64,000 bases of DNA, from positions 186,001 to 250,000 of the forward strand of contig JAENYK010000006.1 of NCBI GenBank assembly GCA_016841825.1. The letters are read 5' to 3'. Every line of letters begins with the position of its first letter. Positions within the stretch are counted from its first letter, which is position 1. The DNA comes from Halothermothrix sp. GTDB lineage: Bacteria > Bacillota > Halanaerobiia > DY22613. Below are positions 24,176-26,383 of this stretch, piece after piece. A model generated the notes under the pieces. The model was not told the origin of the DNA. It was given only the letters and a program-made list of their open reading frames with translations, and searched no databases. A program made the translations under genes and the position numbers.

Positions 24176-24227
24176 AAACTGCTTACGGGCTGTTGAATTT
24201 TTTCAACAGCCCGTAAGCAGTTTTAAT
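24176..24227 (+). terminator. strong terminator before the radical SAM locus
   Basis: A 22-bp perfect stem (24176-24197 with 24202-24223) around TTTT, followed by TTTTAAT counting the end of the arm. It lies 200 bases after the CoA-transferase and isolates the peptide locus. Confidence 0.85.
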
Positions 24228-24391: not shown

Positions 24392-24461
24392 TAAGTAAAA
24401 AATAAAAATGTCAAAATTAAAGGAGATAGTGGGAAATATTAAAAAATGGAGGTGACAATCA

Positions 24462-24587
24462 ATGATTAACAAGTTTTGGAATTTGCAGGGCTTAACTTAT
24501 GAGACCATAACTAATCCTGACAATACTATGGAATATATGCCATCTGAACCACCTGGACATGGCGATGAAACATTTAAATTGGACTAA
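24462..24587 (+). CDS. RiPP precursor-like peptide 1
   Basis: A 41-residue peptide beginning MINKFWNLQGLTYE and containing EYMPSEPPG. It shares with three neighbours W-N-L-x2-L-x-Y-E, then exactly ten residues, then Y-M-P-x-E. The N-terminal part is likely the leader recognised by the radical SAM enzyme; the YMP region and tail (HGDETFKLD) are the likely core. TGGAGGTG precedes the ATG. It has no cysteine and no signal peptide. The product name is unknown. Confidence 0.75.
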   Translation: MINKFWNLQGLTYETITNPDNTMEYMPSEPPGHGDETFKLD

Positions 24588-24626
24588 GATTATTGAGCAC
24601 AATCTCCTGATAAGGAGGTGAAAATA

Positions 24627-24734
24627 ATGCTTAATATCTGGAATTTGGATGACTTAACTTATGAAAATGTAACAGAGATCGATCACAATCAAAAATACAT
24701 GCCAGTAGAACCTGGCGATATCTTTGAGAACTAG
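24627..24734 (+). CDS. RiPP precursor-like peptide 2
   Basis: A 35-residue peptide: MLNIWNLDDLTYE, ten residues, YMPVEPG, then the tail DIFEN. AAGGAGGTG lies 8 bases before the ATG. It comes 39 bases after peptide 1 and has the same shape, which argues against chance open frames. Confidence 0.75.
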   Translation: MLNIWNLDDLTYENVTEIDHNQKYMPVEPGDIFEN

Positions 24735-24748
24735 TTGTACATAACTTT

Positions 24749-24965
24749 GGAAATAGTGAGAAATTAAGCATAAAGGAGGTGGATATTAATGATTAACTCC
24801 TGGAATCTGGAAAATCTTAAGTATGAAGATGATCTGTCTGCTAACCTGTATTTGTTATATATGCCAATTGAAGATCCAATAGCTCCAATCGACAAGATTG
24901 CATGGTAGTAATTATTATTTATTAGAGTATTAGTTTGAAGTGTGCAATTCAATCTCACTATTTCC
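24749..24965. repeat. 13-bp perfect inverted repeat flanking precursor 3
   Basis: GGAAATAGTGAGA at 24749-24761 and its exact complement at 24953-24965 enclose the third precursor gene. Related copies lie at 24425 (GATAGTGGGAAATATT), 26103-26122 and 26271-26284. They may be scars of gene duplication or a folded mRNA. Confidence 0.6.
24789..24908 (+). CDS. RiPP precursor-like peptide 3
   Basis: A 39-residue peptide: MINSWNLENLKYE, ten residues (here hydrophobic), YMPIEDP, then a long tail IAPIDKIAW. AAAGGAGGTG precedes the ATG. It is the most divergent member, with Asp for Pro after the Glu of YMPxE, and it sits between the inverted repeats just before the radical SAM gene. Confidence 0.75.
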   Translation: MINSWNLENLKYEDDLSANLYLLYMPIEDPIAPIDKIAW

Positions 24966-25018
24966 TTTAATGATTTTTTATCTTGATAAATACAAAATTT
25001 AAGGAGGCGTGCCAGAGA

Positions 25019-26089
25019 ATGAGTGAAGTAAAATATTATCCACGGTTTGCAGTGTGGGAACTGACCAATCGGTGTAATGCTCGTTGTGTTCACTGTGGCT
25101 CTGAGTCTGGAGATTGTAGGGAGAATGAGTTGACTGAAAGTGAAGCATTACAACTCTGTGAAGAATTGGCAGAGTTGGGGTGCAAGCATATTGGTATAAT
25201 TGGTGGTGAATTTTTCCTGAGCCCCTATTGGGAAGCTGTAACTAAAAGACTCATAGAGTTGGGAGTAGGAGTGGCACACCTTACCAATGGAGTATTATTG
25301 AACGACAAGAATATTGCTAAATTGCTGAATTTAAGAGTAGGAGCAATCTCTGTCAGCATTGATGGAATTGGCGAAACCCATGATTATTTACGGGGTGTTC
25401 CGGGGTTGTATGGTAAAGTAATCGAGAGTGTTCGTAAATCCAAGGCTGCAGGATTTCGGGTGGGAGTTAATACAGCCATTTCGAAACGGAATATTCATGA
25501 GATGCAAGAGCTTTTTGAAGTATTAACTGAGTTAGATATAAACTCCTGGCAATTACAGGGGGTTGAAGATTTTGGTCGGGCAAACGAGAATCCTGAACTG
25601 GCTCTGACAGCTGAAGATTTTTATGGTATAGCAAAACAGGTAGCTGAATGGCGTAAAGACACCAAAATTAGAATCGTCCTCGGTGATAATATCGGACACT
25701 TCACCCATTTTGATCCAATGGTTAGAGATAATCCGTTTACTGGCTGTATTGCGGGTAGATGGAATGTCGGGATTGAAGCCAATGGAAACATTCGGGGCTG
25801 TCTATCCATTCGGGGTGATGAGAATATAGTTGGTAATATTCGGGAGAGGTCATTAACCGACTTGTGGAATGACCCGAAAACTTTTATAGCATATCGGGAG
25901 AAGACAATGGATCTTATGGAAGGGTACTGTGCTGAATGTCAGTTTGCCAGAATCTGTCGGGCTGGATGTTCATCACTGGCCTATTCTCTGACTGGACATA
26001 TCTATGAAAATCCACTTTGTTTACATAAATATGAGATTGAGAATGGCTTATGGCCTGATGAACTCTCTAAAAAAGAGGAAGCTATCTAA
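25019..26089 (+). CDS. radical SAM/SPASM peptide-modifying enzyme
   Basis: A 356-residue radical SAM enzyme predicted to modify the neighbouring short peptides. The SAM-cleaving cluster is CNARCVHC (Cys19, 23, 26). IGGEF is the SAM-binding GGE-like motif. The C-terminal SPASM domain is complete: C-x17-C with a Gx4C ending (GNIRGC), then CAECQFARICRAGC (Cx2Cx5Cx3C) and a last Cys in PLCLHKYE, so two auxiliary [4Fe-4S] clusters are expected. No separate RRE or PqqD-like gene is seen. The start ATG at 25019 has AAGGAGG 11 bases upstream; a TTG at 24983 was rejected. The reaction is unknown; relatives form thioether, C-C or ether cross-links. Confidence 0.9.
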   Translation: MSEVKYYPRFAVWELTNRCNARCVHCGSESGDCRENELTESEALQLCEELAELGCKHIGIIGGEFFLSPYWEAVTKRLIELGVGVAHLTNGVLLNDKNIAKLLNLRVGAISVSIDGIGETHDYLRGVPGLYGKVIESVRKSKAAGFRVGVNTAISKRNIHEMQELFEVLTELDINSWQLQGVEDFGRANENPELALTAEDFYGIAKQVAEWRKDTKIRIVLGDNIGHFTHFDPMVRDNPFTGCIAGRWNVGIEANGNIRGCLSIRGDENIVGNIRERSLTDLWNDPKTFIAYREKTMDLMEGYCAECQFARICRAGCSSLAYSLTGHIYENPLCLHKYEIENGLWPDELSKKEEAI

Positions 26090-26142
26090 CTGAAAATAAA
26101 TCGGGAAATAGTGGGAAATATTCTGATTAAGGAGGTGATATT

Positions 26143-26241
26143 GTGATTAATAAATATTGGAATCTGGATGGTCTTAGTTATGAGAACAGCGCCGAACTGC
26201 GTAATGATCTGGACTATATGCCTGTAGAACCAGAGTATTAA
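26143..26241 (+). CDS. RiPP precursor-like peptide 4
   Basis: A 32-residue peptide downstream of the enzyme: MINKYWNLDGLSYE, ten residues, YMPVEPEY and stop, thus almost no tail. It shows that YMPVEP itself may be the end of the core. GTG start with AAGGAGGTG upstream. The upstream region repeats that of peptide 1 (ATAGTGGGAAATATT), consistent with duplication. Confidence 0.72.
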   Translation: MINKYWNLDGLSYENSAELRNDLDYMPVEPEY

Positions 26242-26383
26242 TTAATCGGGAGATTGCGCTGGTATGGGTATCTCACTATTTTTCAATTAGTCTAATGTTT
26301 ATTAAAAAGTACAGAACTTTTTTCTGTGCTTTTTAATTGTACTATCCATATATTTCGTCAAAAATTTTGTGTGAAATAAAACA

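Follow-up and report, generated by a model that had tools for sequence, protein, structure and literature searches.

PlpX excises tyramine at Xaa-Tyr-Gly sites and has been placed in IPR026482, a subclass of the SPASM enzymes (PMC11002830, PMC10533398). According to the survey of Scott et al. (2022), as relayed in PMC10373908, the splicease reaction is widespread and its products inhibit proteases. The window, by which we mean the whole 64-kb stretch of DNA analysed, holds a radical SAM/SPASM maturase gene surrounded by four short precursor genes, and a sequence-only reading had placed this locus outside the RiPP classes known to it. Our analysis points instead to a spliceotide-like RiPP cassette, belonging to the splicease superfamily, in which tyramine would be excised at Xaa-Tyr-Met, a reading to which we assign a probability of about 0.6.

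The precursors and maturase of the window

Precursors 1 (24462-24587; 41 codons, MINKFWNLQGLTYETITNPDNTMEYMPSEPPGHGDETFKLD), 2 (24627-24734; 35 codons) and 3 (24789-24908; 39 codons) precede the maturase gene (25019-26089), and precursor 4 (26143-26241; 32 codons, with a GTG start) follows it, all on the + strand; the cores are E-Y-M-P, K-Y-M-P, L-Y-M-P and D-Y-M-P, respectively. A GGAGG(T) Shine-Dalgarno sequence lies close 5' of each precursor ORF, and WNLxxLxYE, ten residues and then YMPxE match exactly in four of four, so that the coordinates, codon counts, ribosome sites and motif given in the earlier reading are all confirmed. The peptides (32-41 aa) have no significant match in Pfam or NCBIfam, WNL...YMP fits no curated peptide model, and Rfam gave no match at the gathering score anywhere in the 64-kb window. 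The neighbouring genes encode AllH and a CoA-transferase III upstream, and DegV, HAAS/LiaF-like and PadR proteins downstream; therefore, as had been claimed, neither an exporter nor a protease adjoins the locus among the annotated neighbours. An inverted repeat at 26301-26337 (+ strand), which can form a hairpin (ATTAAAAAGTACAGAA/TTCTGTGCTTTTTAAT), is probably the end of the operon. A perfect 22-bp hairpin with a 4-nt loop, found 3' of the CoA-transferase gene at 24176-24223, is probably a terminator between that gene and the precursor operon.

The maturase is a protein of 356 aa with Radical_SAM (8.8e-22) and SPASM (8.1e-09) domains in profile searches. Its CxxxCxxC cysteines are at positions 19/23/26, and the full set of seven SPASM cysteines that had been proposed was located at 243, 261, 304, 307, 313, 317 and 334. 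In the predicted structure (pLDDT 92.8) the rSAM/SPASM fold stands alone, with no RRE domain; its nearest matches are SuiB (Z 29.5, the alignment starting no earlier than SuiB residue 94) and SkfB (Z 28.2). The two best NCBIfam matches are TIGR04103 (1.1e-65; the nif11_3, PlpX-type subclass), which we take to be the same family as IPR026482, and TIGR03913 (3.9e-62), both ahead of the next SPASM families by about 40-80 bits but below their own cut-offs (221.8 bits against 725, and 210 against 591.75); identity to TIGR04103 members is about 31-34%. PQQ biosynthesis was rejected, the PqqE model giving 100.8 bits against a cut-off of 381 and no Glu before the Tyr being conserved across the paralogues described below, as was mycofactocin, the MftC model giving 129.6 bits against 265 and the core Tyr of the window precursors not being C-terminal.

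Paralogues, relatives and the Xaa-Tyr site

The locus does not stand alone: the 5.08-Mb genome encodes six more enzymes that share 53-59% identity with that of the window, which makes seven paralogous loci in all, and precursors were found beside every one of the six. Outside the window there are 11 precursors at the six loci and one orphan precursor; among them are MLNTWNLKDFDWSIETASRECYGVEPPIEFENNY (four copies on contig C6), MVNKFWNLDQMEVIEDQPSDLICYMPSLPGDLA (C10), MINKYWNLEEYNFGELASAVAPAKPYSAATIDDPSFPQR (C14), MLDKLWNLDQYSYEIINPEEPPAKIYCCPV (C30), and MINKYWDLTMYNFGDETDPPQTPYGAGTAVER and MIDKMWELDNLDFGDLIVGPMPPYGSVTIIEPIQPIVKA (both C22). When the 5.08-Mb genome was scanned with a DNA pattern consisting of a Shine-Dalgarno sequence and M-x-N/D...W-[NDE]-L, 18 matches were obtained, against one in the reversed control; precursors account for 16 of the 18, and 15 of these adjoin one of the seven enzymes. 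Moreover, in all 17 precursors (the SAR324 homologue discussed below included) the distance from the Trp to the core Tyr is 17-20 residues, a range into which shuffled precursors fall in 4.4 cases on average and in 12 at most. The motif is therefore not due to chance.

What all the precursors have in common is W-[NDE]-L, a hydrophobic, mostly aromatic pattern, and the Tyr at 17-20 residues, in the layout W-[NDE]-L-x2-[hydrophobic]-x-[aromatic, rarely other hydrophobic], a spacer of 9-12 residues and X-Tyr-[M/G/S/C]; each of the seven loci has one SPASM maturase of its own. The residue before the Tyr is free; that after it is Met in the window and Gly, Ser or Cys in the paralogues, whose cores at equal distance from the Trp are CYG, PYG, PYS and YC, with XYG at C6 and in both C22 paralogues and Cys in every precursor of the C30 locus. 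Thus the ten-residue spacer is constant in the window alone (it is nine residues in the orphan copy), and YMP varies among the paralogues, giving way to YG, YS or YC. The Tyr of YMP, one of the three residues named earlier, is the probable target. The orphan (WNL...DYMPSE; L080 15807-15920, - strand, on contig C2 at about 115.8-115.9 kb) has a bracketing stem of its own and immediately follows three genes judged by eye to be NRPS/PKS-like, far from all seven enzymes. B12-binding radical SAM proteins are encoded beside the precursor and enzyme genes of three of the seven paralogues (C10, C14 and C22b; L011 10729-12207, - strand, L012 7386-8867, + strand, and L014 8211-9692, + strand), which suggests a second modification or extra tailoring at these loci; the window locus has no such gene.

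The variable residues bear on a PqqE-like or cyclophane cross-linker that would join the Tyr (or the Trp) to the Glu of Y-M-P-x-E, an idea suggested by the spacing of Y and E, four apart in all four window precursors, and by the frequency of cross-linking among SPASM enzymes. We reject the PqqE-like Y/E cross-link because the Glu is not kept in paralogues (YSAA, YCCPV, YGAG); in addition, against 222 bits for TIGR04103, the enzyme reaches 101 with the PqqE model and 121 with that of WgkB, and cross-linking of this kind is quite improbable.

In a tree of 86 proteins, which included the seven paralogues, the SAR324 enzyme, TIGR04103, GDL and AhbD enzymes and other SPASM outgroups, the enzyme of SAR324 groups with the seven paralogues in a single clade, the WNL clade (support 100), nested in a 76-row clade of XY-associated maturases that includes the TIGR04103 and GDL enzymes (support 100). 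The larger clade is separate from AhbD and the other outgroups, and its deeper internal branching order is poorly supported. The window enzyme carries HCGS (25-28), WQxQ (W177-Q-x-Q180), CxAG and GCLS (260-263), four signatures that the WNL, TIGR04103 and GDL enzymes have in common and that the outgroup mostly lacks. By its position in the clade and the presence of all four signatures, together with adjacent precursors that have an invariant Xaa-Tyr site, it belongs to the XY-site splicease superfamily, made up of TIGR04103, TIGR03913 and their relatives. YM precursors go with two sister enzymes (support 98), and PYG or PYS precursors with three that form a clade (support 98); the precursor motif co-segregates with the enzyme, as would be expected if the two evolve in pairs.

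IMG/VR and phage records gave no relative. No close relatives were found in 60 related genomes or in a sample of 398 genomes of the same phylum, and the only one in a pattern-based scan of GTDB genomes is the enzyme of a SAR324 MAG (53% identical); the restriction of the clade to this genome and one SAR324 MAG is as seen in that one scan and about 460 searched genomes. The SAR324 enzyme adjoins a Franean1_4349-like RiPP precursor (below the Pfam cut-off) that ends in FWNLDVDNIGPSEMAHSSHSAYGGCSGCGGW and in which, as FWNL...AYG, the WNL motif is combined with a plain XYG site. Distant relatives (30-39% identity) occur in Deltaproteobacteria, Melainabacteria/Gastranaerophilales, Alphaproteobacteria, Elusimicrobia, Bacteroidota and Clostridia, some with no recognised precursor but often beside XYG or XYA precursors, often repeated (KYGV, RYGV, VYGI, LYGI, MYAA, MYAY); the precursor of Agathobacter rectalis, for example, reads MFNLEELSLEFV...VMYGTGVRM. 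In another genome, of the same class as the window genome, an array of GG-leader precursors with RYG, KYG and YGV cores surrounds a distant relative of the enzyme (L016, contig C45 of G031). TIGR04103 enzymes of cyanobacteria adjoin nif11 precursors with LYGV, MYGV or LYGLPP cores, like PlpA. The GDL maturases (TIGR03913) adjoin DUF1843 peptides in whose Y-x10-GDL the Tyr belongs to an XYG site (LYGGAM, PYGVAI). An Azospirillum GDL trio includes one peptide (L138 4561-4755) with MYMATM, in which Met takes the place of the Gly of XYG, as in the window; this shows that Y-x10-GDL peptides are precursors with an X-Tyr site after which the residue can vary. An Aureibacter trio has LYAAGI, MYAASI and PYGAGI.

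It is very improbable that the short ORFs, instead of encoding substrates, provide the enzyme with chaperones or regulators. Such a role would suit peptides so tiny, encoded with no adjacent protease or exporter, but not the several divergent copies per enzyme, the variable X before an invariant Tyr, or the homologous XYG substrates across much of the superfamily.

We propose that the enzyme would bind the WNL motif directly, as a docking site, and that the spacer would serve as a ruler placing the core Tyr in the active site. Chemistry of the 5'-deoxyadenosyl radical, with the auxiliary clusters, would excise tyramine (C8H9NO), and X would then be joined to the Tyr carbonyl to give an alpha-keto-beta-amino peptide; trimming and use or export would fall to enzymes encoded elsewhere. 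The expected product is accordingly lighter by about 135 Da at the Tyr, and not by the 2 Da given earlier as one possibility. Against excision in the window stand the Met in place of the published Gly, the low identity of the enzyme to TIGR04103 members and its score far below the cut-off of that model, and the lack of an adjacent PlpY-like partner, protease or exporter; no PlpY-like ORF was found at the window locus or in the six paralogous gene maps. The net reaction has no part for the residue after the Tyr, and a change from Gly to Met is therefore chemically acceptable; the Met-containing member of the Azospirillum trio, by analogy, supports this. Alternatively, an enzyme of the same superfamily acting on the same Tyr may have diverged in outcome, giving, for example, a cross-link centred on the Tyr, a backbone that is cleaved but not religated, or an excision after which a neighbouring side chain attacks. 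Such divergence could account for the confinement of YM, YC and YS to derived paralogues, for the change of enzyme residues 185, 227 and 265 along with the substrate motif, and for the uniform Cys at C30. We regard it as unlikely: the window enzyme fully keeps the superfamily signature, and GDL trios served by a single maturase mix YG with YM (Azospirillum) or YG with YA (Aureibacter), so that the residue after the Tyr need not set the reaction. The products of the proposed splicing would probably be protease inhibitors, and one may speculate that the varied X (E, K, L, D) before an invariant YMP would provide a set of inhibitors with different P1 residues.

Inverted repeats around the precursor genes

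The WNL precursor blocks, that of the orphan included, are enclosed by an inverted repeat, with a 5' arm before the first Shine-Dalgarno sequence and a 3' arm after the last precursor. In the window, the arms around precursors 1-3 are at 24416-24434 (ATTAAAGGAGATAGTGGGA) and, between precursor 3 and the enzyme gene, at 24953-24971 (TCTCACTATTTCCTTTAAT); ahead of precursor 3 the 5' arm recurs (24749-24761), as the exact complement of 24953-24965; the arms around precursor 4 are at 26099-26116 and 26271-26288 (all + strand). Bracketing repeats were found at the window (two), C6, C10, C14, C22 (two), C30 and the C2 orphan, in a survey that left out one C30 copy; the C30c block has its 5' arm further off. 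None was found around the nif11 precursors of the cyanobacterial loci.

The arm sequences are locus-specific, yet complementary within each locus. In eight blocks, whose arms had been chosen for complementarity, 98.1% of the pair cells are formed, as against 85.9% in shuffles (0/500), seven of 13 pairs show double changes, and the covariation score is 0.58 against 0.29 (0/500); slid versions of the arms of these blocks pair at 46-58%. Because of that choice, the fair tests are the swapping of arms between loci and a blind scan. With swapping, the observed pairing was reached in one of 200,000 permutations. In the blind stem scan, which covered 555 short ORFs led by a Shine-Dalgarno sequence over 1.02 Mb of the genome, WNL precursors took six of the nine best places; randomised pairings stayed at or below 27.6, apart from a single value of 31.4. 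Also among the nine best was a Cys-rich precursor whose neighbours are a CcpM-like maturase and a clostripain. Exact inverted repeats are at about chance level over 204 kb, yet half of them sit at WNL blocks. On RNA folding, the closing stem was present in three of three cassettes, with a stability moderately above that of shuffles (z -1.5 to -2.8).

Arms that are locus-specific, complementary and covarying make it probable that a long-range 5'-3' stem closes the precursor mRNA. The non-Watson-Crick pairs on the transcribed strand are eight G-U and two A-C, a ratio biased by an arm search that allowed G-U; this weakly favours pairing in RNA over a DNA element. DNA inversion is a possible alternative origin of the repeats. 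A mobile element is disfavoured, the arms differing by locus while staying complementary and their deviations being mostly G-U.

We know of no precedent for a covarying closing stem on the mRNA of a RiPP precursor; otherwise such stems occur in type I toxin mRNAs. There, a 5'-3' long-distance interaction keeps the full-length message stable and translationally inert until it is trimmed at the 3' end (PMC6733600). The arms of the WNL blocks do not cover the Shine-Dalgarno sequence, so that stabilisation, or the separation of an abundant precursor message from that of the enzyme, is as likely a role. If correct, the covarying stems are an apparently new, testable layer of control on RiPP precursor mRNAs, and the stem scan, which recovered a second kind of RiPP precursor blindly, offers a handle on unknown ones.

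That second precursor belongs to a RiPP cluster beside C14, where a Cys-rich 57-aa peptide (L012 6944-7117, - strand) is encoded within a 14-bp stem near genes for a CcpM-like rSAM maturase and a clostripain-family peptidase (L012 3871-6870). Two uncharacterised ORFs of 75-77 aa (L176 17843-18076, - strand, and L164 13388-13615, + strand) also have stem scores above the randomised control; the former has KKGGCS as its last residues, and there are radical SAM genes about 6 kb away from it.

Comparison with known systems

The assertion that the locus fits no known class proved only half right: no curated NCBIfam or Pfam peptide model fits its precursors, but the enzyme nests with the TIGR04103 and TIGR03913 maturases, and an XYM site occurs in a GDL-type precursor. 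The dismissal of the spliceotides, in particular, leaves out of account these best matches, that same XYM site, and paralogues carrying CYG, PYG, PYS and YC.

To our knowledge, no splicease system is smaller than one in which a substrate of 32-41 residues, with a docking motif and a ruler, needs no accessory protein; if true, it would provide a practical tag for placing ketoamides in proteins. The seven matched pairs of enzyme and substrate also amount to a natural experiment from which the determinants of the residue after the Tyr could be read. More tentatively, at somewhat under even odds, the seven pairs, diversified inside a single genome and altered in site specificity (XYM/XYS/XYC/XYG), would form an RRE-independent, leader-minimal branch of spliceases whose mRNAs are closed by a covarying stem.

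The SkfB, SuiB and PqqE maturases have the same fold as the window enzyme but carry or recruit an RRE and act on different substrates. The GDL maturases are of the same enzyme clade and likewise have several short precursors each, with LYG, PYG and MYM sites; in their peptides, however, the target Tyr is near the N-terminus, before the DUF1843 domain, whereas in the window it is C-terminal to WNL, and the GDL motif is absent from the window precursors. The Franean1_4349-like precursor of SAR324 goes with a sister enzyme (53% identical) and, like the window precursors, has a WNL followed by X-Tyr, here 20 residues on, but differs in a leader of roughly 65 residues before WNL and a Gly-rich tail. 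With the PlpX-PlpY spliceotides of Pleurocapsa the locus has in common a SPASM enzyme of the same larger clade and signature, an Xaa-Tyr core and, in paralogues of the same genome, a literal XYG. In contrast, its precursors, of 32-41 aa, have a WNL motif instead of a nif11/NHLP leader, Xaa-Tyr-Met replaces Xaa-Tyr-Gly, and there is no PlpY partner; for these reasons, and because the enzyme falls below the model cut-off, we file the locus in the splicease superfamily and not among the spliceotides proper. YMP is then probably the variant site of a new, leader-minimal and RRE-less branch of that superfamily.
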